Under the pieces are notes generated by a model that saw nothing but the letters and a program-made list of their open reading frames with translations, made no database searches and had not been told where the DNA came from. Below, in pieces: positions 1 to 24,814 of a stretch of 34,101 nt of DNA (the first letter of the stretch is position 1; the number at the start of each line of letters is the position of its first letter). The translations under genes and the position numbers were made by a program. This stretch comes from Puniceibacterium antarcticum (lineage in GTDB: Bacteria > Pseudomonadota > Alphaproteobacteria > Rhodobacterales > Rhodobacteraceae), in the NCBI RefSeq assembly GCF_002760615.1, contig NZ_AWWI01000115.1, positions 1-34,101 on the forward strand, written 5' to 3'.

Positions 1-462
1 TTCAGCCCCACCGGCCAAGCTGGTTGTCGGCACCGGCCATGGTGGTTGTCGCTCATCAGCTTACAGGTGATGACACAAAATGATCAATGGATTGATGTGC
101 CCGTTGATCCCGGCACCTTCATCGTCAATATCGGCGACATGCTCGAAGCTTGGAGCAATGGCATCCTGCGCTCGACACCTCACCGGGTTCTAAACCTCAG
201 CCCCGAACGTTTCTCGATGCCCTACTTCGTGGCGGTCGACTACGATACTGAGATCAAGCCATTCCAGCAATTGCTGTCCTCTGACGCAAAGCCGCGATAC
301 GCGCCGTTCCACGCTGGCGAACATCTGGAACGCATGCTGATCCGCGACTTTCCCTACCTCCGGCAGCGCAAGGATCGCCGCATATCCGCCTCGTCCTCCG
401 CCGGATTGGATCGGCCGACTGCGAACCCGTTCGAATCTCGCCTGAATGCGAGAGCCAGTTAA
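1..462 (+). CDS. 2-oxoglutarate/Fe(II) oxygenase-like protein (isopenicillin N synthase family), partial and possibly degenerate
   Basis: The reading frame is open from the first base of the window, so the N-terminus lies outside it or is lost. The visible part matches the C-terminal half of isopenicillin N synthase-like dioxygenases: a LQV...W-I-D-V-P strand, P-G-T-F-I-V-N-I-G-D, then S-T-P-H-R-V with the distal iron-ligand His, and an R-F-S motif for 2-oxoglutarate binding. The expected HxD iron motif before LQV is not readable. The frame gives H-R-P there (bases 31-39), and about a dozen residues usual before LQV seem to be missing. It may therefore be inactive. A TTG at 46 is the first recorded start but would leave only 138 residues against about 320-350 for the family. 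The LysE gene follows 3 bases after the stop. Confidence 0.6.
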   Translation, partial: FSPTGQAGCRHRPWWLSLISLQVMTQNDQWIDVPVDPGTFIVNIGDMLEAWSNGILRSTPHRVLNLSPERFSMPYFVAVDYDTEIKPFQQLLSSDAKPRYAPFHAGEHLERMLIRDFPYLRQRKDRRISASSSAGLDRPTANPFESRLNARAS

Positions 463-2116: not shown

Positions 2117-3076
2117 TCAATCCAAACGTATGGAGGTTGGGACAGCCCCACCACGCGCTGTGTCCGCAAGGAGATGTTCGAGAGCGCTGATGTGATAGGG
2201 GAGTTGATTGACTCTGAGGCGTCCCTCGGGGGGCAAATCGGGCGGCCAGACACCCGGCGTGGACATATTTTCCAGCAGCCAGTCAGAGCAAGGCAGGGCC
2301 GTGTCGATGCCATAGGGGCCGGACCGGCAGGGCAGCCGGTCCCGCAGAGCTGCGGCCATACCGTCGGGCGCCCTGCCAGTCAGGCGGCAGGATGCCTGCA
2401 TCACAACATCCCCTGCATGGCGTACTGCAAAGCCTCGTGATTTCATTTGCCGGACGATCGCACGGTCTTCGCCGGTCTTCACGTCGTCGAAACCGCCCGA
2501 TGAACGGTAGGCGGCAAGTCTTATGGCGAGGCTTGCGCCGGAGGCTTCGCCATGATGTGGCTGCGGGTTCGCAGTCTCCGGCGCGAACCGATAATACCAG
2601 TCCAAGACCAAGCGGCGATAGCGGCCTTCCCACACCGCAAAATCAAGGCTCTGTCCCGACAAGGGGGTGGTCTCCGCCGGAATGGGCTCAATCGCACCGC
2701 AAACCGCGTCCACCTCGTCAAGGTGTGCCAGATTTCGAGCGAGCCAGTCGGGCGCCGCAATCCCATCGGCATCTGTGGTCAGCAGAAAGCGCAAGTTCGA
2801 AAATGTGTCGATCGCGTGCGCGCAGCCAAGACGCCGCGCCGTTCCGACGCCTTGTTCCGGAGGAAGGTGAAGGTTCAGCAGATCGACAGGCTTACCGAAT
2901 TTCCGGGCTTCGCAGGAGATTGCCGCTTCGGTACCGTCTGAGGTGTTGTTGAGAACGACGATGATCCGCACGTTGGGACGGCATTGTGCGAGCAACGCCG
3001 CCAGGCATGTGCCGATACGTTTCTCCTCGTTGCGGGCGGGGATGACGATTGTGGTTTCCACGGAAGCATTATTCAT
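2117..3076 (-). CDS. Family 2 glycosyltransferase (soluble), last gene of the glycan operon
   Basis: This 319-residue protein begins with the GT2 fold signature T-I-V-I-P-A-R-N-E-E (residues 9-18). The nucleotide-sugar and metal site T-D-A-D follows at about 101-104, with D102 and D104 forming the DxD motif. A later stretch with G-E-D-R-A-I is compatible with the catalytic-base region. It has no clear membrane segment and is probably cytosolic. It should transfer a sugar from a nucleotide donor, but donor and acceptor are unknown. Its ATG overlaps the stop of the NodS-like methyltransferase gene by 4 bases. Nothing resembling a strong terminator was found between its end and the cyclopropane synthase remnant. 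Confidence 0.88.
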   Translation of the reverse strand: MNNASVETTIVIPARNEEKRIGTCLAALLAQCRPNVRIIVVLNNTSDGTEAAISCEARKFGKPVDLLNLHLPPEQGVGTARRLGCAHAIDTFSNLRFLLTTDADGIAAPDWLARNLAHLDEVDAVCGAIEPIPAETTPLSGQSLDFAVWEGRYRRLVLDWYYRFAPETANPQPHHGEASGASLAIRLAAYRSSGGFDDVKTGEDRAIVRQMKSRGFAVRHAGDVVMQASCRLTGRAPDGMAAALRDRLPCRSGPYGIDTALPCSDWLLENMSTPGVWPPDLPPEGRLRVNQLPYHISALEHLLADTARGGAVPTSIRLD

Positions 3077-3639
3077 GCGTGACCCTCGGGTTGTGCAATA
3101 TCAATGCGATAAAAATCGGTGCTTCTTCGGGTTTCGAAGCGATGCGTTTCGGCCAGCGTACCGGTAAAGACCTCAAGCGCGTCGATGCCCTGAAGCGTGT
3201 GGTCGGTTTCGCCAAGATAGGTGACACAGAGCAGCTCTGCCAGCGGCCAGCGCGCGGAGAGATCTTTGGCGAGAGCTCTGATATCGTCGCGACCGAGAAA
3301 GTAGAGAAATTCTGAGATCACGATCAGGTCAAAATCTCCTGCCGGAAGAGGACAGGGGTAGAAACCCTGCACGAACCTTGCGGATGGCACTGCACGGCCC
3401 GCGGCCAACACTGCGCGTCCGACTGCGTCGATCCCGGTATAACGTTTGCAGAGCGGGGCGAGGTGGCGTGCAAGTTCGCCGTTGCCGCAGCCAATTTCCA
3501 GCGAGGCGCGGTACTGAGACCGCGACAGGGCTTCGCGGGTGGCCTGGAACTTTGCCTGCTCATAGGGGCTTGTGGCGAAATCCCAAGGATCATCTGTTGC
3601 GGCGTAGATCGCGTTCAACCGCTCGGAGGAAACGGTCAT
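3073..3639 (-). CDS. NodS-like SAM-dependent methyltransferase
   Basis: This 188-residue protein has the class I methyltransferase motif L-E-I-G-C-G-N-G-E at residues 47-55, a G-I-D acidic strand near 69-71 and an F-D-L-I-V-I-S-E strand near 103-110. The N-terminal D-P-W-D-F-x-T-S-P-Y-E-Q (residues 17-28) is typical of the NodS family, whose founding member N-methylates the deacetylated amino sugar of rhizobial Nod factors. Its neighbour is a PIG-L deacetylase, which could expose such an amine. Methylation of a deacetylated aminosugar is therefore a reasonable inference, not shown by sequence. It overlaps both neighbours by 4 bases (ATGA), implying translational coupling. Confidence 0.87.
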   Translation of the reverse strand: MTVSSERLNAIYAATDDPWDFATSPYEQAKFQATREALSRSQYRASLEIGCGNGELARHLAPLCKRYTGIDAVGRAVLAAGRAVPSARFVQGFYPCPLPAGDFDLIVISEFLYFLGRDDIRALAKDLSARWPLAELLCVTYLGETDHTLQGIDALEVFTGTLAETHRFETRRSTDFYRIDIAQPEGHA

Positions 3640-4343
3640 ATCGGGGTTCTCCAGAAGATTTCATCCTCGTCAATGAACTTGGCCACGAACCGGGGGTCGA
3701 GCCGGAAGCCATCAGGATCGTCAGTGATACAGGATCCAAGCTGGCTTTCATGTGCACGGATCGCAGCCGCCTTCCGGGCGCGATGGCGGGCGATGTCGAA
3801 ATGAACGGGATCATGTTTCTGGATGTTTGTTGCAAAGTCCCGGTCGTCCCAGCGACACCAGACGGGGTAGCTGTAAAGCGTCAAATCTGGGTCAAGCAGG
3901 ACCAGTGTCCGCGCGATCCGCGCAGTGGTCTTGTGATCGGCGTGGTGATCCTCCGTCGCTGGTGCAAAGACGCACCTCGCGCCAATTCGCGCAACGATGG
4001 ATTCTATGTCTGTAGCAATTTGACAAGGGTCATAAGCGTGCAACTGGCTGTCCTTCAGGCCAAGCCATGTGGTATCCGCAGGCTTCCCTCCGAGCTGCGC
4101 GATGGCGGTCTCAAACTCTTGTCTGCGTCTCAGGGCGAGTCTTTCTGGCGGCCACTCCTTCGAATTGGGATGAGAGGCAGAGCGATCGGTCACGCAGATG
4201 ACGTGCGCGCCATGCTGGCGAAATCCTTCGGCCAGAAGACCGCCACAGCCTAGCGATTCATCGTCGGGATGCGGCGCCAGGATGACTATCGGTGTCCCAC
4301 TGGACAGGGCGTCGAAGCACGCGGCGCGGAAATGCGCGTTCAC
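3636..4343 (-). CDS. PIG-L/LmbE family N-deacetylase
   Basis: This 235-residue protein carries both zinc-site signatures of the PIG-L/LmbE family: H-P-D-D-E at residues 25-29 and H-H-A-D-H at 133-137. The family removes N-acetyl groups from amino sugars such as GlcNAc-inositol in mycothiol or GPI synthesis, or related amides. No signal peptide is visible, so it should act in the cytosol. It lies between an acyl-CoA dehydrogenase-like gene (4-base overlap) and the NodS-like methyltransferase gene (4-base overlap), which points to deacetylation followed by N-modification of a sugar. All ligand residues are present, so activity is expected. Confidence 0.92.
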   Translation of the reverse strand: MNAHFRAACFDALSSGTPIVILAPHPDDESLGCGGLLAEGFRQHGAHVICVTDRSASHPNSKEWPPERLALRRRQEFETAIAQLGGKPADTTWLGLKDSQLHAYDPCQIATDIESIVARIGARCVFAPATEDHHADHKTTARIARTLVLLDPDLTLYSYPVWCRWDDRDFATNIQKHDPVHFDIARHRARKAAAIRAHESQLGSCITDDPDGFRLDPRFVAKFIDEDEIFWRTPI

Positions 4344-5437
4344 TTCAGAAGCTCCCTGATCGAGTTTTCGTCTGCAAATGCCTGATCAGCGAAACGGATC
4401 AGCATGGCGTCCCGCGCCGCCTGACGAAGGTAGACAGAAAGATCGCGTGCCCTGCGGCTGGTGACACTCCCGTCCTCGAAATGTGCTAGTCCGACAGATT
4501 GCTCGACCGCTCGGATTGCATCGAGCGCGCAGTCCTCTGTCTGGAGACGCGCAGCAATTGAGAGCGCAACCGCCTTCTCCGGCATCTTTGACAGCATCAT
4601 CCGGGCCGCGCGTTCGACCAAAGCTCCGCCCGAAAGGGCGCGCATCATCACCTGGCCCAGCCGCGACTTCTGGGCATCCGCCTCCATGCGCCCCAGAGAG
4701 CGCAGGTGGGAGGTTGCCGCGTCGATCAGTCCGACCGCACCACCGATCTGAAGCGCCGCTATCCGCCACACGCCCCCCACGAAATATGGTTCACGCACGT
4801 AATCGCCCGCAGATCCAACCCAGAGAAGCGAAGACACCGCCAGGCCGCTGAAATCGAAGCGGCCTGATGCGGTGGATCTCATCCCCGGCATGCGCCAACC
4901 CGATACGTCGGCACGATTGACGTCGGTCACCTCAATGAGGGCAAGCCTTACGTCCGGCCCGGAATTCACGGTTACGATCGCATGTGTCACGGTTCCAAGG
5001 CCCGATGCGAATTTCTTGGCTCCTGTCAGCCCTGCCGCGCCCTTTTCCAAGACAACGGGTATGGCATCGTCAGCCCCCCAGACGCCAAGAAACGCACCAT
5101 GGGCAAGCAATTGTTTGACCTTGTCCCTCACGGACCGAGCGGCGTACGTCTTTACCAGATTGAGCGCGTTGATATGTCCCTCCCATAGGCGCCCTACCGG
5201 CAAATTTACCGACCCTAAAGATATCAGACTTCGTGCCGTCAATTCGGGTTCGGTCGCTCCATCATCCAGCAGTAGGCTGGCATCACGCAATCGATCTATG
5301 GAGGCTCCGATGTCGAGAAGGCCAATCTCTTCATCCGCCGCGTGCGCGGCGCACCCGGCAAGCATCGTCTCGAAGGAAGAATCCGCATAGGCACTGCGGT
5401 GTTTCAACCATGCGCTGACGCGCTCATTCTTTGCCAT
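4340..5437 (-). CDS. Acyl-CoA dehydrogenase-like flavoprotein
   Basis: The 365-residue product resembles acyl-CoA dehydrogenases. It has an alpha-helical N-terminal region, a middle beta domain with G-V-W-G-A-D-D and T-G-A-K-K-F-A-S-G (about 120-150) that contacts FAD, and a helical C-terminal domain ending in R-D-L-S-V-Y-L-R-Q-A-A-R-D-A, typical of the FAD-binding end of the family. The usual catalytic Glu could not be placed with confidence. Membership of an operon of glycosyltransferases and sugar-modifying enzymes, rather than of beta-oxidation genes, suggests that it desaturates or otherwise modifies an acyl or sugar-linked intermediate. Its ATG overlaps the preceding stop by one base (TAATG). 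Confidence 0.82.
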   Translation of the reverse strand: MAKNERVSAWLKHRSAYADSSFETMLAGCAAHAADEEIGLLDIGASIDRLRDASLLLDDGATEPELTARSLISLGSVNLPVGRLWEGHINALNLVKTYAARSVRDKVKQLLAHGAFLGVWGADDAIPVVLEKGAAGLTGAKKFASGLGTVTHAIVTVNSGPDVRLALIEVTDVNRADVSGWRMPGMRSTASGRFDFSGLAVSSLLWVGSAGDYVREPYFVGGVWRIAALQIGGAVGLIDAATSHLRSLGRMEADAQKSRLGQVMMRALSGGALVERAARMMLSKMPEKAVALSIAARLQTEDCALDAIRAVEQSVGLAHFEDGSVTSRRARDLSVYLRQAARDAMLIRFADQAFADENSIRELLK

Positions 5438-6480
5438 TATGCCACCCTCTGACTTGTTTCGAGCCGCTCAGACCGGGCTGCGGAGGTCAGCAGATCGGCC
5501 CATTGATGAGCCACTGCGGAGAGACGGAACGACGGATTCAGAGAGACCTCTGGCGCCCTCTGGCGCCAGCACTGGATCCGTTCCAGAATCTGCGTGGGAT
5601 CACTGCAATCGATGCGCTGATCCGGACTTTCAAGCACCTCGTTGTTCGCGCCAAGACCCTTTTGTGCGAGCACAGGAGTGCCGACGGCATTCGCCTCTGC
5701 CATAACTAGACCGAAGGTTTCGGCGAATGTCGTCTGCGGGTAAAACACGCATAGCGACCGGCGCATCTGCCGGATCAGGGCAGTATGAGACAGAACGCCC
5801 AGAGGAATGACGTTGTCGGGGGCTGGCCCGACATTCCAGCGAAGGTACCCAGGGTCAGCAACAGCCAGAACAAGCTCCGGTATCGTGTGACGCAGTGCAT
5901 CAAAGCATGCAAAAACCTCACGCAGGCCCTTGTGTGGAGAGCTCGCGAACAAGAGGCGGTTTTTCAGGCGTGGCGTCGCATCGGGGACCATGCTGTCGGC
6001 AACGGGATTATGAATGTGTAGTATGTCGGGTTGGCGTGCCTCCGCAAGAAAACGGCGCAGCCCGTCGGCGTGGCTTTGTGATACGCATATGATGCGGATA
6101 CCTGCATCGCGCAGCTCCTTGCCCATTACCCTGTTGTGGCGGCCTGGAAAGACATGCAGCCACAGAAAGATGGGCAGATCGGGGTTGATCCGGCGCAGCT
6201 TGAGCGCGACCTTCCAGGCGTTAATGACCACGATGACATCTGTCTGCAGCTTCGTCAGCTTGACTTCGAATCTTTCAAATGACAATGAACCGCGCTGACT
6301 GGTGGTCCTTCGATTGCGTTGGAACAGGCCGATCTTGAATGTCTCGGACAGGGCATCGGCGATGCGCAGGGTCGTCGCTTCGGTTCCGCCCAAGGTTCCG
6401 GTGCGTAGGTGTGACGGATCATATCCGGCGGCGCACATGGGGTCGACAATCGCGACGCGGACGCGTGAATGCAGGGTCAT
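5437..6480 (-). CDS. GT4-type glycosyltransferase (GT-B fold)
   Basis: The 347-residue protein has the two-domain look of retaining GT-B enzymes. The N-terminal half contains G-G-T-E (residues 31-34), the acceptor-side loop found in many GT4 proteins. The C-terminal half has S-P-H-K-G-L (181-186) and the E-x7-E donor-binding motif, E254 and E262, within E-T-F-G-L-V-M-A-E. It is probably cytosolic or loosely membrane-associated. Overlaps of 4 bases upstream and 1 base downstream place it within the same transcript as the GT2, deacetylase and methyltransferase genes. Donor sugar and linkage cannot be inferred. Confidence 0.88.
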   Translation of the reverse strand: MTLHSRVRVAIVDPMCAAGYDPSHLRTGTLGGTEATTLRIADALSETFKIGLFQRNRRTTSQRGSLSFERFEVKLTKLQTDVIVVINAWKVALKLRRINPDLPIFLWLHVFPGRHNRVMGKELRDAGIRIICVSQSHADGLRRFLAEARQPDILHIHNPVADSMVPDATPRLKNRLLFASSPHKGLREVFACFDALRHTIPELVLAVADPGYLRWNVGPAPDNVIPLGVLSHTALIRQMRRSLCVFYPQTTFAETFGLVMAEANAVGTPVLAQKGLGANNEVLESPDQRIDCSDPTQILERIQCWRQRAPEVSLNPSFRLSAVAHQWADLLTSAARSERLETSQRVA

Positions 6481-7454
6481 GCGATCGCTTCCACCTCGCC
6501 AAAGCGCGTATAGGGCGTCCTTATTATGGCCGAAACGGCACGACCTGTGGACGCAGTAGCGGGAATGTCGCGGCAGGCGAGCATATCGGGGTTGCTTACA
6601 AAATCTATGGCAAGATTAGGCAAGTCTATGGTTTCGGCCTCGACCGTCCCATGCGCGCGCCAGTCATCAACCTTGCGCCAGACTGTATCGCGGTCAAAGC
6701 GGCGGGCAGAGCTTTCGTAATTTGATCCGACCGCCTGGGTCAAACTGCCGGGGGTCTCGATCTTGGTCAGAAGAATCTCGGGGATGACCCAAACGACCTC
6801 ACCATTCAGGATCAAACGGTTGCGCAACTCGCGATCTTCCTCGATGCAGTTCGCGAACCCGCCGACGCGGCTCAGCATCTCGTGCCGAAACAGACCTGAA
6901 TTGATGTGCGTCCACTCTCCCGGGACCTGCGAGCCCATCTGGAGGTTGGGAAAGACGTCGTCCAGCAGTGACAGATCGCGGCGAATTTCCACCCGTCGGC
7001 CATCCGGCAGCAGAAGCTCATGATGGCTTAGCACGACCCCAACATCCAGCCGCGACGAGGGTGTGTGGCCGGCTATCCGCCAGTTCAGACATGGGTCGGC
7101 GTGAATATCCTGCGCGGTCAGGACGCGAACCTGTCGCAGCACTTTGTCGCGATGCGGAATATCATCGGAATCGTGGAAGGTTACGGCTTCGCCATCGGTC
7201 AGAAGCAGACCGGCATTCTTGGCCTGAGCGGTGCCATGATTGCGCGACAGACGGATATAATTGAAATCATCGCGGTTGAGATAAGGCCTGAGCGCGCGCC
7301 AAGTATCATCAGTGCTCGCGTCATCGACAACCGTGATACGTTTATGCCACCAAGATTGTTCAAGAGCCGCTCGTACGGCCGTTTCGATCAAGTGAGCCCG
7401 GTTGTAGGTCGGGATGATGATATCCACGCGGGGGGACATGGGGTCGGCTGTCAT
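6477..7454 (-). CDS. Family 2 glycosyltransferase (soluble)
   Basis: This 325-residue GT2 protein opens with V-D-I-I-I-P-T-Y-N-R-A (residues 10-20) and V-V-D-D-A-S-T-D-D (42-50). It has the acidic metal-binding motif H-D-S-D-D at 94-98. No membrane helices are evident. A second Met at residue 6 is an alternative start, but the first gives the 4-base ATGA overlap seen elsewhere in this operon. It follows the membrane synthase gene directly and probably adds a sugar to the same glycan. It is distinct in sequence from the other soluble GT2 at 2117-3076. Confidence 0.88.
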   Translation of the reverse strand: MTADPMSPRVDIIIPTYNRAHLIETAVRAALEQSWWHKRITVVDDASTDDTWRALRPYLNRDDFNYIRLSRNHGTAQAKNAGLLLTDGEAVTFHDSDDIPHRDKVLRQVRVLTAQDIHADPCLNWRIAGHTPSSRLDVGVVLSHHELLLPDGRRVEIRRDLSLLDDVFPNLQMGSQVPGEWTHINSGLFRHEMLSRVGGFANCIEEDRELRNRLILNGEVVWVIPEILLTKIETPGSLTQAVGSNYESSARRFDRDTVWRKVDDWRAHGTVEAETIDLPNLAIDFVSNPDMLACRDIPATASTGRAVSAIIRTPYTRFGEVEAIA

Positions 7455-8914
7455 GTCATAAACTCCTGTTTCAGGCCCGTGACGGCTTTGCGATAGGATT
7501 TAAGCTGGGCTGAGGTCAGTGCCGCGGCGGGCCATGTCAGCATCAGTGAGATGGTGGCAGCCAAGACGACGAAGCCCGCATGATAGGCTGCCGGGAGGCA
7601 CAAAAGTGCGAGCGCGAGCATTATGGTATGCTGAACGGGGATGCGCCCATGATCTGCGTCGGTTGCGACGCACTTGTCTGTGACGACGAATTGGAAACGC
7701 CGTCCTGCCATGGTGTCGAAGGTCGCACTGGCGGACGCCGGTGCGAGCGCCAAGCGGCTTGCGAGCGCACCCAGTATGGTGCCAAGTGCCTGCCTGTCGC
7801 GCAGGCCACGGTCGAGGATGCGCCAGACGAGTTCACCCAGTCCAAGGAATACGGTGGTGGCGGCAAGCAGAACGACAAAATTGTTTGCCGCCCCTGTCAG
7901 AAGGCCGATGAGAAGGACGAGTGCCGGAAGTAGCGACACATTAAGCCAAGCCGTTAGCTGCGCGAGCAGCGCGATGCGTTTGCGCGATGGAAGACTGCTT
8001 TTACAACCGAGTATGATTGGCAAATGCAGCAGCAGAGTCTGCAGATTGCCGCTGGCCCAGCGATGACGCTGCTTTTCGAGATCGCGCAGCGAGAAGGGCA
8101 GGTAGCCCATGCCGACGACTTGTGAAATATATCGACCAGAAAAACCGGCCTGACACAACCTCACGCCCATTTCTGCATCTTCAGTGGTTGTGCGACCGGA
8201 CCAGCCGCCGCAAGCTATCAGGGCGGCCTTTGAGACCACACAGAGTGTTCCGGTCAGCAGCACCGATTCCGCGCCATCCCCAACTTCCGCGCTTGAGCGG
8301 AAATACTCTTCGAGTTCAGCGTCGACACCTTTTAGGCGGCCTTGAGAATGTGCATAGGCCTGAGGGAACTGCACGTAATCTGCGCCAGTTCGTGTCAGTG
8401 CCGACTGCGATGCTTTAAGGAAATCCGCACTGACCTGATAATCCGCATCCACTGTCACAACATGGGTCGCTTCGCTTCGGGATTGGGCTAGTGCAATGTT
8501 CAGCGCACCAGCCTTTGCACCCTTAACGTCGTCCTGATGCAGGTATCTGAAGGTCGGCCCTCGCCCGTTACACCACTTCTCGACTGGCCGCCAAAGTTCA
8601 GGATCGGCAGTGTTGTTGTCCATCACGATGACCTCGTACCCAGAGTGGGGCCAGTTCTGCTCATCAAGGGATTGCAGGGTTTTGATGACCATGTCCGGCG
8701 GCTCGTCATGTGTGGCGACATGCACGGAGAAGAACGGGTCGACCTCAACAGTGTGATCCGGTCCCCTGTTGGGCAGATAGGCACTCGCAGAGATCCGAAC
8801 TGCTATGAGGCATAGTTGCAGCGCGAGCACCGCACCACAGATTACGGCCCCTGCCAAGGGCATGATGATACACAGGGCGGCAAGGCAAAAGGGTAGAAAT
8901 ATGCCACAGTTCAT
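7451..8914 (-). CDS. Membrane GT2 synthase of the cellulose/chitin synthase type
   Basis: This is the first gene of the operon (487 residues). Two hydrophobic segments occupy residues 1-45. The GT2 domain follows, with a D-x-D at 156-158 (V-D-A-D), T-E-D at 244-246 and Q-R-H-R-W at 282-286. These are the motifs of processive synthases such as BcsA, NodC and hyaluronan synthase. At least three or four further membrane helices lie between 305 and 475. Such enzymes both polymerise and extrude a beta-linked glycan; a non-processive role on a lipid acceptor is also possible. The PilZ domain of BcsA is absent. The ATG is preceded by a GGGGGT ribosome site. The next gene overlaps by 4 bases. Confidence 0.9.
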   Translation of the reverse strand: MNCGIFLPFCLAALCIIMPLAGAVICGAVLALQLCLIAVRISASAYLPNRGPDHTVEVDPFFSVHVATHDEPPDMVIKTLQSLDEQNWPHSGYEVIVMDNNTADPELWRPVEKWCNGRGPTFRYLHQDDVKGAKAGALNIALAQSRSEATHVVTVDADYQVSADFLKASQSALTRTGADYVQFPQAYAHSQGRLKGVDAELEEYFRSSAEVGDGAESVLLTGTLCVVSKAALIACGGWSGRTTTEDAEMGVRLCQAGFSGRYISQVVGMGYLPFSLRDLEKQRHRWASGNLQTLLLHLPIILGCKSSLPSRKRIALLAQLTAWLNVSLLPALVLLIGLLTGAANNFVVLLAATTVFLGLGELVWRILDRGLRDRQALGTILGALASRLALAPASASATFDTMAGRRFQFVVTDKCVATDADHGRIPVQHTIMLALALLCLPAAYHAGFVVLAATISLMLTWPAAALTSAQLKSYRKAVTGLKQEFMT

Positions 8915-9132
8915 GGTTCACCCCCGAGGTGTTGCAGGCAGATTCGGACTGGAGAAATCATCAGGACGCCGACAAAGGCCGATGGGCTTCCATGGATTGA
9001 CAACCGCTGCGGCAGGCCAAAGGTTCCCACTGTGAAAGAAGATATAAGTAAATGAAATTTAACGATAAAGTTTGATCGGGAGATAACTTATCAGTAAAAT
9101 AAAACGCGTTCGTTAAACTGTGTTAATCCACG
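8915..9132 (-). promoter_or_regulatory. AT-rich leader/promoter region of the glycan operon
   Basis: The 218 bases between the Crp/Fnr regulator stop and the membrane synthase start include a markedly AT-rich stretch (about 9030-9125) in otherwise GC-rich surroundings. A palindrome GATAA-C-TTATC lies at 9082-9092, a candidate operator. A TTGAT half-site at 9072-9076 resembles half of an FNR box, but its partner is not well placed. No convincing -35/-10 pair was found. Position and composition make this the likely promoter of the seven-gene operon. Confidence 0.45.
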
Positions 9133-9876
9133 TCAGACTTTGTTCGCTGGAAACCAGCCTATGTCCATATCGGAGTAACGATCCCGGAAATCGGTCGCTT
9201 CCTCCATGGCCTCGGGGCGAAGCAGGTGGACAGTGTTTCCTGTCCGAGCAATGTCCCCGTCTTTCTCCATCCTTGAAAGTGTCTTGCTGACATAGACATT
9301 GGTCAAGCCGACGTAGGCCGCAATCTGGCTCTGGTTTAGCGGAAGTCTCAAGACATCACTCATCCCCTTATTGGTGATTTTCAAACGCGCCAGAAGATCT
9401 AGCAGCATGTAGCTGATCCGTGCCCGGGCGGTCATGCTTCCTAATGCCCGCAGGAGGTCGAGCAGGATGATCTGATCGCGCAATGCGATGGACAGAATAA
9501 GAGCAGAAAGGCGGGGAGAGTCCCGCAAGATGACGTCGAGCGCGGTCTTGGGGAAGGGGCAGAGCACAACATCCTCGGCGGCGCAGAGGGTCGAGGTAAC
9601 ATGTTTCTGCGACACATCCGGAAAGCCGATGATATCGCCGGGCAAATGCAGTTTCACAATCTGCCGACTGCCATCGGGCAGGTCGTTGTAACTGAAAAGC
9701 CAGCCCTGCTTCACCACGAAAAGGTCGGTGCAGGGATCGTCCATTTGATAGATGTCCGTCCCAGCCCCGTAACTGCGTTCGGATTTTTCCAGTGTCGAAA
9801 GCCTCTGCCTGTCGTCTTCACTCAGAGAAATGTAGTGTCCAAGCTTGGAAACGAGGCAGCTCGCTCGGTCGGTCAT
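9133..9876 (-). CDS. Crp/Fnr family transcriptional regulator
   Basis: This 247-residue protein has an N-terminal cyclic-nucleotide-binding-like beta barrel (about 30-115, with L-P-G-D-I-I-G-F at 78-85), a long dimer helix (about 120-145) and a C-terminal winged helix. The helix-turn-helix L-N-Q-S-Q-I-A-A-Y-V-G-L-T-N-V-Y-V-S-K-T-L lies near 180-200. It lacks the spaced N-terminal cysteine cluster of true FNR, so an iron-sulfur oxygen sensor is unlikely. The ligand is unknown. It is followed in the same orientation by the glycan operon after 218 bases, so it may regulate that operon. A GGAG ribosome site precedes the ATG. Confidence 0.92.
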   Translation of the reverse strand: MTDRASCLVSKLGHYISLSEDDRQRLSTLEKSERSYGAGTDIYQMDDPCTDLFVVKQGWLFSYNDLPDGSRQIVKLHLPGDIIGFPDVSQKHVTSTLCAAEDVVLCPFPKTALDVILRDSPRLSALILSIALRDQIILLDLLRALGSMTARARISYMLLDLLARLKITNKGMSDVLRLPLNQSQIAAYVGLTNVYVSKTLSRMEKDGDIARTGNTVHLLRPEAMEEATDFRDRYSDMDIGWFPANKV

Positions 9877-10045: not shown

Positions 10046-10573
10046 TCAGGGGGTGTCTTCGATCCCGCGTATACCTTTCAACACATCAGATCGTGAAAGG
10101 GGCACGGGGTTCAGGTCGCGGAGAACACTGACATCCCCGGTGGTTTCAAGAACCACTGCGATGACCTGTTCGGTATTCCAGACGTTGGCCTCCCGCATTT
10201 TGGCAAACAAATCGGCTTCTGTGACCCGTGCCGTCGCTAGGTTCTCGGTGTAGATCTTCTGACCGGCCATCAGCAACAGTGGCGTGTTGTCCACAGCGCC
10301 GCGGAAACCGTGAACATGAACCCGCAGCCAAGCGACAATGCCCTGAAAAAGGAAAATTGCCACTATGGCCGCGATTGCAATACTCAGGTCAAGGCTCTTG
10401 TCGACGATTGCCGTCGCCACCAGAGAGCCCGTGGCAATGGTCATCGCAAAGTCGAAGATCGACATTTTCGAGAACGAGCGAAGCCCTTGTATCCTTGTCA
10501 GGACGATGACCACGACGATAATCACGCCGGTTCTGAAAAAGGGTTCCAGCACGGAAAATTCCTTATTGTCCAA
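10046..10573 (-). CDS. DUF421 (YetF/YcaP-like) membrane protein
   Basis: The 175-residue product has three N-terminal hydrophobic helices (about 12-30, 40-58 and 65-85), followed by a soluble domain with the DUF421 features G-x-V-D-N-T-P-L-L-L-M and I-Y-x-E-N-L, and a later L-R-E-A/M-R-E-A-N-V-W region. The family is widespread in the inner membrane and its function is poorly known. It lies 70 bases after the catalase gene on the same strand, so the two may form a stress-related transcript. The recorded start is a TTG at 10573 without a clear ribosome site; an in-frame GTG seven codons later is an alternative. Confidence 0.85.
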   Translation of the reverse strand: MDNKEFSVLEPFFRTGVIIVVVIVLTRIQGLRSFSKMSIFDFAMTIATGSLVATAIVDKSLDLSIAIAAIVAIFLFQGIVAWLRVHVHGFRGAVDNTPLLLMAGQKIYTENLATARVTEADLFAKMREANVWNTEQVIAVVLETTGDVSVLRDLNPVPLSRSDVLKGIRGIEDTP

Positions 10574-10643: not shown

Positions 10644-12752
10644 TTACGAAAGCCGGTCCCAGAAGCGGACCTTGGCGCAGGCCGAGACGAAGGACTTTGC
10701 GTCGCCCTTCTTGTTTAGGGCGATGACGCCGTCGTCAGGTGAGTCGATGCCCGATGACTTCAGGAACGCAGCACCTGCGCCCCCGACACCGATGAACTTG
10801 CCATGAGCAAAGGCATCCGCCGCAAAAGTCTTGGCGGCGTGCATCCCCTTCAGGGCCTTTGCACCGTCTTCCGAGGCGAGTATGACCACAGCATCATAGA
10901 GCACGGAGGGGCCGCCATCGATCTTTTGCTGTGCGGGCACTTCCTTTCCACCTGCCGTCACAATGCCGCCGATCTTAGGCGCAACGACCTCAAAGATGCC
11001 TCCAGCATCCTTGATGGCGTTCATCACGCCGTCGAGCAGATCGTCGTCGATGCCGTCGGTCAGCAGAAGACCCATCTTGCGACCCGCAAAACTGTCGGGA
11101 CCGTTCTTAAGGATCGACAACGAATCTGATGGCTTCAGCCCTTCGACCGGGGTGCGAGCGGGTGTGTGCGCCTTTGGTACCGATTTGAGGCCCAGCCCAT
11201 CGGCGACCTTGGCGGCGAGATCTTTATCGATGTTGGGCAGGTGAGCCACCAGCCGCTCCCGGATCGCGGGAGTCTCGACCTTCGAGAGTTCAAAGACGAT
11301 TGCACTGGCAATGTGGTCCTGCTCGATCCCGGTCTGGCTGATGTAGAACTGGCGAGCCTGACTGTAGTGATCGGCAAACAGTTCGCCTCGGACCTTGCGC
11401 TTTTCGCCATCCACCTGCTCGGGATAGGATCTATGACCCTTCTCGGGATCGGCGCGCGGACCGCCCTGCGCCCAGCCGTTGGGTTCGTAATTGGCGCGAC
11501 CGACGGGATTGTGCATCGCCATGTGACCGTCCTGCTGGAAGTGATGGAACGGGCATTTCGGGGCATTGATCGGGATATGGGTGAAGTTCGGCCCACCTAG
11601 ACGCTTGGTCTGTGTATCGAGATACGAGAAGTTGCGTCCTTGCAGCAGTGGGTCGTTTGTGAAGTCTATGCCCGGCACGATATTTTGTGTGCAGAAGGCC
11701 ACCTGTTCGGTTTCGGCAAAGAAGTTGTCGACCATTCGGTCGAGCACAAGCCTCCCAACAATACGCACCGGTACGTCCTCTTCCGGAATCAGCTTCGTGG
11801 CGTCGAGCACGTCAAACGGGAACGTGTCGGCGAACGCATCGTCAAAGACCTGAACGCCCAGCTCCCATTCCGGATAATCTCCGTTCTGGATAGCCGTCCA
11901 CAGGTCCCGACGGTGGAAATCCGGATCGGCGCCGTTGATCTTTACCGCCTCGTCCCAGATCACCGATTGCAGGCCCTGCTTCGGCTTCCAGTGGAACTTG
12001 ACGAACTGGCTTTTGCCCTCGGCCGTCACCAAGCGGAATGTGTGGACGCCAAAGCCTTCCATGAACCGGAAGGAGCGCGGAATCGCCCGATCCGACATGG
12101 TCCACATCACCATGTGCATGGCCTCGGGCATCAGCGAGATGAAGTCCCAGAAGTTGTCATGCGCCGACTGCGCCTGCGGGAAGGCGCGGTCCGGCGCTTC
12201 CTTGACCGAATGGATGAGATCGGGGAATTTCATTGCATCCTGGATGAAAAAGACCGGGATGTTGTTGCCAACGATGTCCCAGTTGCCCTCTTCGGTGTAT
12301 AGCTTCACCGCAAAGCCGCGCACGTCCCGGGCAAGGTCAACCGATCCCTTGTTGCCCGCCACTGTCGAGAACCGCACGAAGGCCGGAACCCGGCGTCCCT
12401 TTTCCTGAAACAGATGCGCCGAGGTCAAGTCAGATAGGTCTTCGGTCGCCTCGAAATATCCATGCGCACCATAACCGCGGGCATGGACCACACGTTCGGG
12501 GATCCGTTCGTGATCAAAATGGAAGATCTTTTCGCGAAAGTGGAAATCCTCCAGAAGGGCGGGTCCTCGCGCGCCCACGCGCAGGGTGTTCTGATTGTCG
12601 CCCACGGGAATTCCCTGAGATGTGGTCAAGGCAGGGCCATCACCGCGCTGATGCGTCTCGCCGCCTTCGCCGGGCACGTTCTTTCGCTCTTTGGTGTCAT
12701 TGGACGACTGTGTTTCGGCGCTCGGTGTGTAAAGGCCGGATTGATCTGCCAT
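10644..12752 (-). CDS. katE: Large-subunit (clade 2) catalase, HPII type
   Basis: This 702-residue protein breaks down hydrogen peroxide. The catalytic His lies in R-V-V-H-A-R-G (His 90), followed by R-F-S-T-V-A-G, the N-N-I-P-V-F-F-I-Q Asn region and the proximal haem site [10 protein letters not shown]. Length above 700 residues and the extra C-terminal domain, a class I amidotransferase-like flavodoxin fold (about 540-700), mark it as a large-subunit catalase. The frame continues upstream to 12842, but the ATG at 12752 is preceded by an AAGGAA ribosome site 8 bases away and begins with a polar extension usual for the family, so it is preferred. It is followed by the DUF421 gene. Confidence 0.95.
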
Positions 12753-13180
12753 GAGCTCAGTTCCTTGTGAGGGGCATCGCCCGCTCGGAGCCGGGCGGGT
12801 CAGTGCGCTCATTCCAACACTCCATCGCGCTGAAGGTTCCAATTGCCTGGTGCACTGTTCGCTTTCGGAAAAAAGGCACTCTTTGCTGTATTATGAGCCG
12901 GAACAAGATAGTGATCGCGCGTTGGCGAAAAGTAATCTCTTCTCGTCCCAACCAAAGGGGATATCAGCGGTTGGTGGCGTGAGGAGACCGATCTTAGGAG
13001 GTTGGGGGGGGCAGCATTATGAGCTAATAGATCATTCAGTCGGACACGGTCCTGCCGGACACTATCCTCTCTGTTCGCAAGGATAACCGAACTTTTGAAT
13101 TATCTCACCAATGTTACTAAGGGCACCTACGGCTGTTCGGGTTTTGGTCTTGTCAGCCTGAATATCACGTCTCAAAATAT
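12753..13180 (-). promoter_or_regulatory. Long leader region of the catalase gene
   Basis: No gene is supported in these 428 bases. On the minus strand GGAAC-N16-TGTT lies about 70-95 bases upstream of the catalase start, three of four matches at the -10 to the GGAAC/CGTT pattern of extracytoplasmic stress sigma factors; this may be chance. A run of eight or nine G lies near 13007. Two GGACAC copies lie near 13045-13065. A T-G-A-A-T-A-T hairpin with its complement (13159-13183) overlaps the kinase stop codon and may weakly terminate that gene. Confidence 0.3.
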
Positions 13181-14372
13181 TCAGTGTTCCAACGTTTTCA
13201 GTTCTGCCTGTTGCTGGATCATTTTCAGGATCCGTCGTTCGTCAACCGGCTTCGGCAGGAATAGCACTTCATCGAATATGTCGGGAAGCTGATCTTTCGA
13301 ATAGCCGGATACGCACAGGAAAGGCACACCCTGTTTTTGGAGCTCAAGCGCCACGGGTTCCGAGGTTTCAGTGCCACGTTTGACATCGAGAATTGCAAAG
13401 GAAGGGCGCGCGTGCGCGATAAGGGCAAGTGCATCTTCGACATTGCCCGTCGGGCCAATCATGGCCAGCCCAGCTTCCTCCAGCATTTCCGAGATTGAGC
13501 GCGTAAGCAGCGCGTCGTCATCGACGATGAGCACGCCCACCTCTTCGCTTTTTCTGGTCAGAGGTTCGGCACGCACGGAGGCTGTGTCATCGACGACCGT
13601 CACCGACGCCAACGGACACGTCAAACGCCAAATCAGCCCGGAGGGCTCATACTTCGCATCCACCGAACCGCCCAATCCCGACGTGAGAAGCGAGCCGGAA
13701 ACGAGGCTACCGAACCCGGTTCGCTGCGGTGCCTTGACCGACGGTCCGCCCGTCTCTCGCCACTCCATGACATAGCTATGCCTGTCTTCGGTCCGTTCCC
13801 TGCGCCAGCTGATCTGAACCTGTCCGGAGGTGTTGGAAAGTGCGCCATATTTCCCCGCGTTGGTCGTCAATTCGTGCAAAGCCATTCCCAGTTTTTCCGC
13901 CGCTTCGGGGAAAATCATTATGGGAGACCCATCGACATGAATGCGGTTTTCAAAAAGATCCGAGAAATGCGCCAGCTGACCGCGAACCAAATCGTTCAGA
14001 TCAACTGTCTTCCACTCGGATTTGACAAGAATATCCTGGTTCGCTGCTAGCGCAGAGATCCGATCCGAGAAACGTTCGAGGAAGCCATAGATCCCGCTTG
14101 ATGCCGTGCGTCTGGCGATGACGTTGACCAGTGACAGCATGTTCTTGGCGCAATGGTTCACCTCTTTCAGCAGAAGCTCGACATGATCTTTGTGACGCTT
14201 GATGTCGGTAATATCGTGGAATAGGTTGGCAATCCGGCTATCTTCCGGTTTGTCGATCGGGAATGCGTAGACATCGAACGCCCGGTTCAGCATTTCCGAG
14301 TGCTCTTCAAAGCGCCTTGGCTTGCGTGTCCGGGCAACGTCGCCATAAAATTCGTACCAATGCTCTTCTAGG
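13181..14372 (-). pseudogene. HWE histidine kinase with C-terminal receiver domain, 5' end lost
   Basis: The frame is open through 14372 and the visible start at 14293 lies inside a PAS domain: S-L-E-E-H-W-Y-E-F-Y and F-D-V-Y-A-F-P-I are standard PAS segments split by that ATG. Numbering from that ATG, the phosphoacceptor is His 47 (E-V-N-H-C-A-K-N; the usual Arg after His is Cys). The HWE kinase signatures are H-E-L-T-T-N-A-G-K-Y-G (140-150) and W-R-E (178-180). A receiver domain follows (V-L-I-V-D-D-D at 254-260, acceptor Asp 303, Lys in L-P-K-P). The coding sequence stops abruptly at the end of an IS6-family remnant at 14373, so the N-terminal sensor is missing. A shortened kinase could still be made from 14293. 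Confidence 0.85.
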
Positions 14373-22621: not shown

Positions 22622-24814
22622 TTAACGTGACAACACCGCAACACCACCTGCCTCCAGATCATGAATTTGGTAAAATCTTCTGTTTGCCTCAACAACCTTG
22701 AAAGGTACAGGTCGACCAAAGTAATATCCTTGTAGATAATCAACTCCAATTCCCCTTAGACAATCCGCGTCCTGAACAGTCTCAATGCCCTCAGCGATTA
22801 TCTCCAAATCCAATGATCGGGCGAGACCTACCATGGACGCAACCATTTGGGCATCTTTGTTGCTGTTGTAACTGGACCGGACAAAGGAACGATCAATTTT
22901 CAGAACGTCAAACTTAACTCGTTTTAGATATCCGATTGAGGAATAGCCGGTTCCAAAATCGTCCAGCGCTAGACTAAAGCCGCAGGCCCTGAGAACAGAT
23001 AGTTCTTTCGCGATCGTAATATCGTCGCGCAAGACGATCTGCTCTGTGACCTCCACCTCAATCCGACACGGGCGAATACCATATCCAGAAATACGGTTGG
23101 AGAACTCTTCTGCAAAGCCAGGTGTCATGAGTTGGGCAGGCGAGATATTGAGGTTGATCACTGTGTTGTCAACATTTTTGATGTCTTGGCAGACCAGATC
23201 GAGGAGCAACCAGCCCAACTGCAGGATAAGTCCGCTTGTCTCAGCAACATTGATGAACCTCTCAGGGTCAACCTGACCCAGTGTGGGGCAAGACCAGCGA
23301 GCCAGCGCTTCGTACCGGGAAGCCTGTGAAGGTTCGCGTGTGGAAACAATGGGCTGATAGTACATTTCAAACCCTGTACCGTCTACTAAAGCGCGGCGCA
23401 GTTCCACCTCGATCCGCTTGTAATCAAGATCAGCGGCTTTCATGTGGCTGTCGTAACGAACCACCTTCTGCGAACCGTGCGCCTTGGCGGAATACATGGC
23501 GCGATCTGCCCGTCTAAGAAGTTCGTCTTGATCCATGAAACGATATTCGCTTACGGCAAGCCCTTTGGAAGCTATGACTTCGAACATCACACCGTTACTT
23601 CGTATGGGGTCCGCAGATATCTCGATTATATGTCGGCATTTCTCATTAATTGTCGTTTCAAGTTCATCAGAACCGCAAATAGCGATAAAGAACTCATCCC
23701 CACCATAGCGCGATACGAACGTTGCATGGTCTGCCAACCGTCCCAGGCGTCGCGAGAATTCAATCAGGAACTCATCTCCTCCAATGTGCCCCACTGTATC
23801 GTTGATCTGCTTGAAACGGACCAGGTCTATGGCTATTATTGCGCAGTCCGCATCTGCTCGTTGGCACAGAAGGTCCAGATGTTCGCGTAGGGCAAACCGG
23901 TTTGGCAGATTGGTGAGCACATCGATTCTGGCCTTTCTGAATGAAATGGCTTCCTTATCGATCAGAACCTCGGCTTTGACGCGCAAGAGTCGCGCGGCAA
24001 AAAATGAGATCAGCATGAAAGCGAGACTGCCGCTGATCATGATCGGGAGCATATTCCAGAACAAAAGCGTACCCGGAGTCGGTGGCAACCATTGCAGCCA
24101 AGCGATGGGTTCGCCCGTGACACCGGACAGGGGGAAGCCAACCGCAACGGCAGACGGGCCGCCAACCACGATTTCTAGTCTTGAGATGGAGAATTCACGT
24201 TCTACTTCGGCTAGTCGCTTTTCAGATATAACTTTTCCGATGACGGCTATGGCTTCAGCTTCAAGATGGCTTCCCTCAAGCAGGTCATCATCTTCCGGCA
24301 AAAGGTACGATGCGCTGAACATCACCAACTTTCCGTCCCTCAGCTCAAAATAGTCGAGCGTCTCTCGTCGCGTAAAATCGAGCCGGAACACTCTAGACCG
24401 CAGTTCAGCTCGCGTTATAGGCGATAGCATTCCTTTCTGCGGGGTTAGACCAAGCTGCGCACTCCAGGACACGGGTGCATCAAATGGCCCATCGAAAAGC
24501 TCTGCATATTGGAATACATCGCCGCGATCCGCAGTGACACCATAGTTCGATGCCAACTTGGAATATTCGAGGTTCTTAGCATTCAAGTAAAGATCCGTCC
24601 AGTTATGGTAATCACTGGCGATGATAGAAACTTGGTCTTGGAAGGCTAAAATTCTTCCAGTCATACGATTTTTGGATTCTTCCGCAGCGTCAGCGTCCAT
24701 TTTATCCCTTATTGAGAAAAAGGAAAGCCAGACAACAGAAACCGACGCGAAAAGACAACCGGTTACCACGATTACTATCTGGCTCGGAAGTGTGTTTGGT
24801 TTCATTTTGCACAC
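22622..24814 (-). CDS. CHASE4-GGDEF-EAL cyclic-di-GMP signalling protein
   Basis: The product has 730 residues from a GTG start (an ATG three codons later is also possible). A first membrane helix (about 12-35) is followed by a periplasmic CHASE4-like sensor with D-Y-H-N-W-T-D-L-Y, then a second helix (about 255-280). The cytosolic diguanylate cyclase domain has R-Y-G-G-D-E-F. Oddly, a second G-G-D-E-F precedes it in G-H-I-G-G-D-E-F-L-I, where the family usually has A-G-D. The phosphodiesterase domain keeps E-A-L-A-R-W, N-x-S-x-x-Q, D-D-F-G-T-G-Y-S-S, K-I-D-R-S-F-V and E-G-I-E-T, so both activities look intact. It overlaps the SET-domain gene by 13 bases. Confidence 0.93.
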   Translation of the reverse strand: MCKMKPNTLPSQIVIVVTGCLFASVSVVWLSFFSIRDKMDADAAEESKNRMTGRILAFQDQVSIIASDYHNWTDLYLNAKNLEYSKLASNYGVTADRGDVFQYAELFDGPFDAPVSWSAQLGLTPQKGMLSPITRAELRSRVFRLDFTRRETLDYFELRDGKLVMFSASYLLPEDDDLLEGSHLEAEAIAVIGKVISEKRLAEVEREFSISRLEIVVGGPSAVAVGFPLSGVTGEPIAWLQWLPPTPGTLLFWNMLPIMISGSLAFMLISFFAARLLRVKAEVLIDKEAISFRKARIDVLTNLPNRFALREHLDLLCQRADADCAIIAIDLVRFKQINDTVGHIGGDEFLIEFSRRLGRLADHATFVSRYGGDEFFIAICGSDELETTINEKCRHIIEISADPIRSNGVMFEVIASKGLAVSEYRFMDQDELLRRADRAMYSAKAHGSQKVVRYDSHMKAADLDYKRIEVELRRALVDGTGFEMYYQPIVSTREPSQASRYEALARWSCPTLGQVDPERFINVAETSGLILQLGWLLLDLVCQDIKNVDNTVINLNISPAQLMTPGFAEEFSNRISGYGIRPCRIEVEVTEQIVLRDDITIAKELSVLRACGFSLALDDFGTGYSSIGYLKRVKFDVLKIDRSFVRSSYNSNKDAQMVASMVGLARSLDLEIIAEGIETVQDADCLRGIGVDYLQGYYFGRPVPFKVVEANRRFYQIHDLEAGGVAVLSR

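Follow-up and report, generated by a model that had tools for sequence, protein, structure and literature searches.

Among the described systems closest to the locus analysed here are two that free the amine of a sugar. In Nod factor synthesis, NodC makes a short N-acetylglucosamine chain, NodB de-N-acetylates its end and NodS N-methylates it; in mycothiol and bacillithiol synthesis, a glycosyltransferase and a PIG-L deacetylase act together as MshA/MshB and BshA/BshB. In addition, DnmZ-type nitrososynthases oxidise the free amine on a sugar. The window studied here is the whole stretch of 34,101 nucleotides from Puniceibacterium antarcticum (assembly GCF_002760615.1, contig NZ_AWWI01000115.1), and the system in question is an operon of seven genes on its minus strand at 2117-8914, which a first-pass annotation had described as a glycan operon and a possible Nod-factor-like pathway. 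The operon is composed of two modules, namely a conserved core of four genes (the tetrad), encoding a soluble family 2 glycosyltransferase (GT2A), a NodS-like S-adenosylmethionine (SAM)-dependent methyltransferase (MT), a PIG-L de-N-acetylase and an acyl-CoA dehydrogenase (ACAD)-like flavoenzyme, and a lineage-specific synthase module (SYN, GT2B and the family 4 glycosyltransferase GT4). On balance, the evidence favours a stress-inducible locus whose core would make a de-N-acetylated, methylated and oxidised glycoside with a protective role.

Another point of comparison is an operon of Acinetobacter baumannii, ACICU_02432-02435. In the accessible part of PMC5660220, its genes encode a glycosyltransferase, a SAM methyltransferase, LmbE and a putative acyl-CoA dehydrogenase-related protein, and their RNA-seq levels drop 31- to 62-fold in two colistin-dependent mutants, alongside trehalose-6-phosphate synthase, phosphatase and catalase; they belong to the 33 genes that are down more than tenfold in both mutants. 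The four product names stand in the order of the tetrad and the genes co-vary with otsAB and catalase, whereas the synthase module is missing and that part of the paper assigns them no function. Among the papers listed by text searches of the literature, none on the gene set was found, nor is the tetrad described as a pathway in the parts consulted of PMC6599016, PMC5660220, PMC13130816, PMC13232832 and PMC6181384, of which PMC5660220 alone lists it, without comment. The set is conserved elsewhere, and no characterised matching cluster was found, in keeping with the earlier remark that no described product was known for it.

The conserved four-gene core and the synthase module

Of the 198 family genomes, 20 carry a relative of the ACAD-like protein at E 0.001, with E 1e-40 or better in 14 of these; at class level the number is 28 of 385 genomes, six of which (the window's own included) reached E 1e-30 or better. 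A profile search at phylum level matched 35 of 398 genomes at E 1e-20, and a scan of genome contigs gave one relative only, from Oceaniovalibus; other named relatives belong to Paracoccus and Sulfitobacter. Neighbourhoods of 20 kb were then scored by profiles, 63 in all, with 19 from a first set, 27 from the phylum search and 17 from plasmids; the window itself is outside this count, and two contigs of one genome (G066) were counted once, L061 being dropped. The phylum set covers 31 of the 35 matched genomes (27 newly read, four read earlier or holding the window; G700, G820, G834 and G885 were left out), the plasmids are 17 records taken from 58 and 29 matched, and two unannotated long records (L152 and L153) were read by profile only. 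The controls were 20 neighbourhoods of ordinary acyl-CoA dehydrogenase-like matches, in one of which (L171) the profile itself found no gene.

MT lies within 3 kb of the ACAD-like gene in 60 of the 63 neighbourhoods (19/19, 25/27 and 16/17 in the three sets), PIG-L within 3 kb in 54 (18/19, 22/27 and 14/17) and GT2A within 9 kb also in 54 (17/19, 21/27 and 16/17). The full tetrad is present in 50 (17/19, 19/27 and 14/17), and the control neighbourhoods hold MT, PIG-L and the tetrad in 0/20 each. Since the first 19 neighbourhoods were used to build the profiles, their matches arise partly by construction; the 44 neighbourhoods outside profile building hold MT in 41 cases and the full tetrad in 33. 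The glycosyltransferase is not co-directional in eight of the 63, GT2A being on the opposite strand in L069, L104, L130, L131, L132, L134 and L135 and missing in L133, and the firm unit is therefore the ACAD-like gene with PIG-L and MT, with GT2A nearby. The tetrad ranges over Deinococcus, Nostoc, Bradyrhizobium, Komagataeibacter, Acinetobacter, Comamonas, Pandoraea, Kitasatospora and Streptomyces plasmids.

Relatives of all seven genes stand together in the same order in five other places (L002, L053, L054, L055 and L129), and in L059 and L060 all seven are present with a catalase gene, recognised by homology, inserted between GT4 and the first GT2. SYN, GT2B and GT4 occur in only seven of the 63 core neighbourhoods (6/19, 0/27 and 1/17), and the other 56 have no such synthase nearby. 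At E 1e-40, GT2B was found in 7/198 family genomes, all seven of which carry the ACAD-like gene, itself present in 14/198 (hypergeometric P 1.6e-9 if the genomes are independent, kinship being uncorrected). The synthase module thus accompanies the tetrad in one lineage group, but the tetrad has no need of the module. In fact, the neighbourhood survey that the first-pass annotation had proposed finds the seven families together elsewhere and the four-gene core conserved far more widely.

These results bear on one alternative, a stress-regulated exopolysaccharide or glycolipid whose backbone is built by the synthase module and decorated by the tetrad, its glucosamine being freed, methylated and oxidised. 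The nearest solved structures to SYN are those of bacterial cellulose synthase (BcsA), all seven genes overlap, and the constant company of GT2B and a tetrad gene would also suit such a product. Against it, the tetrad occurs without such a synthase in 56 of the 63 places; moreover, SYN alone among the seven operon proteins has hydrophobic segments, and PIG-L, MT and the ACAD-like protein have neither such a segment nor a sign of export, as judged from a Kyte-Doolittle scan only. Having no hydrophobic segments, these three should work inside the cell before export. A polysaccharide or glycolipid of this kind is possible but unlikely. As an enzyme, SYN does not qualify as a CelA equivalog (73.4 bits, cut-off 699).

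The successive genes overlap by 4, 4, 4, 1, 4 and 4 bases. Coordinates, overlaps and Pfam matches (Table 1) confirm the seven-gene glycan operon and the families first assigned to it, with PF00535 found twice for the two soluble GT2s, PF00534 for GT4 and no Pfam family for the ACAD-like protein. The synthase and deacetylase motifs named at first sight were likewise located, at residues 155 (VDADY), 244 (TED) and 282 (QRHRW) of SYN and 25 (HPDDE) and 133 (HHADH) of PIG-L. The base composition of the operon resembles the remainder of the window's left half.

Table 1. Features of the operon and its upstream flank, in window positions
Feature	Position	Strand	Evidence
GT2A, soluble GT2 glycosyltransferase, core module	2117..3076	-	PF00535 E 9.4e-20; DAD at residue 102
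MT, NodS-like SAM-dependent methyltransferase, core module	3073..3639	-	PF05401 NodS E 4.2e-12
PIG-L family de-N-acetylase, core module	3636..4343	-	PF02585 E 2.7e-24; HPDDE and HHADH metal motifs complete
ACAD-like, flavoenzyme of acyl-CoA dehydrogenase fold and distinct family, probably a monooxygenase, core module	4340..5437	-	Profile and conserved residues
GT4 glycosyltransferase, add-on module	5437..6480	-	PF00534 (Glycos_transf_1) E 7.6e-9; PimA similarity weak
GT2B, soluble GT2 glycosyltransferase, add-on module	6477..7454	-	PF00535 E 1.6e-25
SYN, membrane GT2 synthase with DxD, TED and QxxRW, add-on module	7451..8914	-	PF13632 E 3.4e-21
EcfG-type promoter-like motif GGAAC-N18-GTT	9002..9027	-	End about 88 bases before SYN start codon
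Crp/Fnr-family regulator, adjoining the operon upstream on the same strand	9133..9876	-	PF00027 and PF13545
YetF/DUF421 protein	10046..10573	-	PF04239
KatE-type large catalase with a probable true start near 12752	10644..12842	-	PF00199, PF06628, PF18011
HWE histidine kinase with C-terminal receiver domain	13181..14293	-	PF07536 and PF00072

Several single loci deserve mention. A lone ACAD-like gene at L133 9764-10930 (Methylobacterium sp. FF17 plasmid) stands beside Crp/Fnr and c-di-GMP genes. For Deinococcus gobiensis (L134 8579-10927), the annotated ACAD-like protein is a fusion of much greater length, extended at the N-terminus. Two genomes of a single genus have a second PIG-L gene near the tetrad (L116 6595-7206 and L128 12007-12636), and in Cupriavidus basilensis (L146) PIG-L adjoins a catalase and is not within the tetrad. 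The tetrad is also carried by L150, a record that bears the label of an Acinetobacter baumannii plasmid but, at 3.66 Mb, has the size of a chromosome; a predicted aminoglycoside resistance gene follows about 7 kb further on.

The flavoenzyme, deacetylase and methyltransferase of the core

The window's ACAD-like protein on its own had no match at E 0.01 in Pfam or NCBIfam. The superfamily was reached with a profile built from 20 relatives (A1), and the label "acyl-CoA dehydrogenase-like" given at first sight holds at that level but not for the protein taken singly. Compared with solved structures, the profile matched DszC best (5.9e-18), followed by methanesulfinate monooxygenase (2.9e-14), dehydrogenases from 1e-10 and the nitrososynthase DnmZ (E 3.3e-9). 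The NCBIfam SfnB model matches 16 of the 20 members and the DszC model 12, and Pfam dehydrogenase domains match at best eight. In an alignment of 53 members, E86 and H88 are invariant among the 52 sequences with a residue there, S145 is found in 51, and R338 and Q339 in all 53. Position 340, which from motif spacing we take to be the site of the dehydrogenase catalytic Glu, holds Glu in 0/53 members. With this Glu absent and flavin monooxygenases nearest, the enzyme does not, on present evidence, stand at the acyl-modifying step where it had been tentatively placed, and such a dehydrogenase role is ruled out as the most likely one.

The ACAD-like family resembles the flavin monooxygenases DszC, SfnB and MsuC in its best profile matches and in S145, which corresponds to S163 of DszC; it differs from them in its own invariant residues (E86, H88, R338 and Q339) and in its setting, which is sugar rather than sulfur chemistry. 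Of the key residues of DszC, which we take to be His92, Asn129 and Ser163, the first two are replaced, R/K83 standing at H92 and V119 at N129; a literature search on these residues gave no paper. Since these two equivalents are not conserved, monooxygenase activity is a prediction and membership of the DszC family is not claimed. Similarly, the DnmZ-type amino-sugar nitrososynthases share the superfamily with the ACAD-like proteins, but they are remoter than DszC and several dehydrogenases in that profile search. By these comparisons, the ACAD-like proteins form a separate family, probably of flavin monooxygenases.

PIG-L scores 86.6 bits against PF02585 (cut-off 28.2), and its metal motifs are invariant or near-invariant across relatives (profile A2). 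The profile is nearest to diacetylchitobiose deacetylase and then to the bacillithiol and mycothiol deacetylases, all of which act on N-acetylglucosamine glycosides. MT scores 46.8 bits against PF05401, over the cut-off of 24, and its relation to NodS holds at family level; this genuine likeness explains the "nodulation" Gene Ontology (GO) labels that MT carries in public annotation. Among solved structures, the MT profile matches first 4isc, described as "Methyltransferase" only (147.7 bits), and second NodS (3ofj, 95.8 bits), the nearest characterised one.

A Nod-factor-like pathway, in which SYN would make a short N-acetylglucosamine chain, PIG-L would de-N-acetylate its end and MT would N-methylate it, agrees with these profile likenesses and with the logic of the families, and in both cases an amino sugar would be freed and methylated. 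The closer comparison, however, does not uphold it. SYN scores 31.1 bits and GT2B 36.3 against NodC (cut-off 550, genome best 37.9), MT scores 58.9 bits against the NodS equivalog (cut-off 300, genome best 57.1), and the operon deacetylase matches only PF02585 (PIG-L/CE14), the genome's four matches to the NodB-type PF01522 lying on other contigs. In addition, the conserved unit has no synthase in 56 of the 63 neighbourhoods, and its range, with Deinococcus, Nostoc, Acinetobacter and Streptomyces, is wide and non-symbiotic. NodA (PF02474) has no match in the genome and likewise none in 14 control genomes. We consider a Nod-factor-like pathway very improbable. From the initial logic of polymerising, de-N-acetylating and methylating, deacetylation followed by methylation may be retained, NodS being the nearest characterised relative of MT, whereas polymerisation is not part of the conserved logic because the synthase module is absent from most core copies.

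The same deacetylase brings into consideration a redox buffer of the mycothiol or bacillithiol kind, for which the glycosyltransferase and PIG-L would produce a glucosaminide, to be charged afterwards with a reactive group. The steps would follow the MshA/MshB and BshA/BshB logic with related deacetylases, the best NCBIfam scores of the window's PIG-L are to BshB2 and BshB1, and the catalase link described below would fit. These scores are far under their cut-offs (55 of 195 and 49.5 of 182.5), the core glycosyltransferase is a GT2 and not a GT4, and no cysteine ligase (MshC or BshC) is seen in the tetrad, where a methyltransferase and a flavoenzyme replace it. Such a buffer is quite unlikely. 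With the remaining MshB or BshB score at 17.4 of 224, PIG-L is not taken for an equivalog of either enzyme.

Stress genes and an EcfG-type promoter motif beside the core

Immediately upstream, the operon is flanked by genes for a Crp/Fnr regulator, a YetF protein, a catalase of the KatE type and an HWE kinase bearing a receiver domain. A Crp/Fnr homologue stands at the same place in L053 and L129, HWE kinase homologues lie near the operon in L002 and L055, and a Paracoccus sediminicola plasmid has the same catalase, YetF and Crp/Fnr genes upstream, followed by a DUF892 gene. Kinases of the HWE type commonly feed into the PhyR general stress system. Relatives of KatE occur in 11 of the 63 core neighbourhoods and in 0/20 controls, Ku or LigD in four and OtsA in six of the 63. 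At least one of eight stress markers (KatE, OtsA/B, Ku, LigD, GlgE, TopoIB, DtpC-like) is found in 21/63 neighbourhoods compared with 0/20 controls; the markers were partly chosen from these loci, and with two neighbourhoods removed that counted only through their own marker the figure is 19/61.

In some lineages the link to trehalose synthesis is direct. In Comamonas antarctica, otsA, ACAD-like, PIG-L, MT, GT and otsB follow in this order, the genes overlapping or nearly touching; otsB-otsA lie directly upstream of the tetrad on the same strand in L117, and otsA likewise in L123. An Acinetobacter ursingii plasmid carries the tetrad between a catalase/diiron-protein group and otsAB. Judging from annotation only, this diiron protein may be the DtpC treated in the accessible part of PMC13232832.

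The motif in front of SYN was found by searching for GGAAC-N15-18-GTT, a pattern based on the sites given in PMC6599016 for the general stress sigma factor EcfG. In the whole window this pattern occurs 7 times against 2.97 expected, a number reached by 3/100 shuffles. For the other loci, the test region was the 350 bases before the start of the first core gene or operon plus 60 bases inside, with starts set by hand; the count excludes L058 and L071, which lie at contig ends, as well as L114, L127 and the loci from Deinococcus and Nostoc. An upstream motif is present in 14 of 31 alphaproteobacterial places (the window and 13 of 30 others), where shuffling gives a mean of 0.64 and a maximum of 4 in 300. 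At four in-gene offsets it was found in 0/31 places each, and upstream in other classes in 0/18. The window's genome also encodes NepR (58.5 bits, cut-off 25.7), the anti-sigma partner of EcfG, and both marks of an EcfG regulon, the promoter motif and NepR, are thus present. From these counts, about half of the alphaproteobacterial copies are plausibly under general-stress control.

Two more EcfG-type motifs stand beside the KatE gene, at 12816-12840 on the minus strand and 12900-12923 on the plus strand; the former shares the strand of KatE and precedes its probable start near 12752 by about 64 bases. Elsewhere in the window, a 138-residue open reading frame at 46-462 (plus strand) matches only the C-terminal part of a 2OG-Fe(II) oxygenase domain and, at the window edge, is possibly cut or decayed, and a large protein at 22622-24814 (minus strand) reads like a diguanylate cyclase/phosphodiesterase, with GGDEF and EAL motifs seen by eye.

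A proposed protective sugar

Because the four-gene core recurs in bacteria that are only distantly related, and often near genes for surviving stress, its product is more likely a modified sugar with a protective role than a plant signal of the Nod-factor kind. In the favoured mechanism, GT2A would attach an N-acetylated amino sugar to its acceptor, after which PIG-L would strip the acetyl group and MT would methylate the freed amine. The ACAD-like enzyme would oxidise the product, working as a flavin monooxygenase and not as an acyl-CoA dehydrogenase; the steps would presumably follow in this order. Trehalose or another small polyol is a candidate acceptor, since otsA/otsB share the operon in some lineages. 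SYN, GT2B and GT4 would probably serve to lengthen or export a glycan, with the modified sugar either attached to it or accompanying it. Transcription would start from the EcfG general-stress promoter upstream of SYN, together with that of the neighbouring KatE catalase, and this company suggests that the product would most likely protect against drying and oxidation.

A more specific form of this proposal, which is speculative and improbable in its full detail, is a widespread, undescribed stress metabolite, an amino-sugar glycoside perhaps on trehalose. De-N-acetylation, N-methylation and N-oxygenation, the last by monooxygenases of a new ACAD-fold family, would turn it into a hydroxylamine- or nitrone-type sugar, which in the window's lineage would be built into a stress-induced glycan. 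A hydroxylamine or nitrone group might act as a radical scavenger during drying, and this would account for the catalase, trehalose-synthesis and DNA-break-repair genes found alongside in several phyla.

Several observations weigh against the protective, stress-inducible reading. PIG-L is not near the ACAD-like gene in 9/63 neighbourhoods, L133 carries the ACAD-like gene alone, L127 is probably no member, and 42/63 neighbourhoods have none of the chosen stress markers. The motif is not upstream in 17/31 places and lies on the opposite strand in 4/31; its distance to the hand-set starts varies from 2 to 288 bases, and some of the places are near relatives (L053 and L129). With regard to the chemistry, the NodS-likeness of MT, a relation read from sequence, does not prove N-methylation, the residues H92 and N129 of DszC are not kept in the ACAD-like family, whose monooxygenase activity is thus a prediction, and the predicted structure of the ACAD-like protein (window and L002) has a predicted local distance difference test (pLDDT) score of 41.5, too poor for use. 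The ACICU genes were equated with the tetrad by the name and order given in the part consulted of PMC5660220, not by sequence, and their co-variation arises in lipopolysaccharide-altered strains and is not proof of function. Finally, in drying Acinetobacter sp. Tol 5, multiple acyl-CoA dehydrogenases are reported to go down and catalases not to stand out (PMC13130816), a result that lends the stress reading no help.

If the protective reading is true, the tetrad, whose occurrence extends from alphaproteobacteria and Acinetobacter to Deinococcus, cyanobacteria and actinomycetes, would make an unnamed protective small molecule. The reading would also correct annotation labels that have spread with these genes, namely "acyl-CoA dehydrogenase" for the flavoenzyme and the GO term "nodulation" for MT, and it would tie survival of desiccation and oxidative stress to a testable chemical product.

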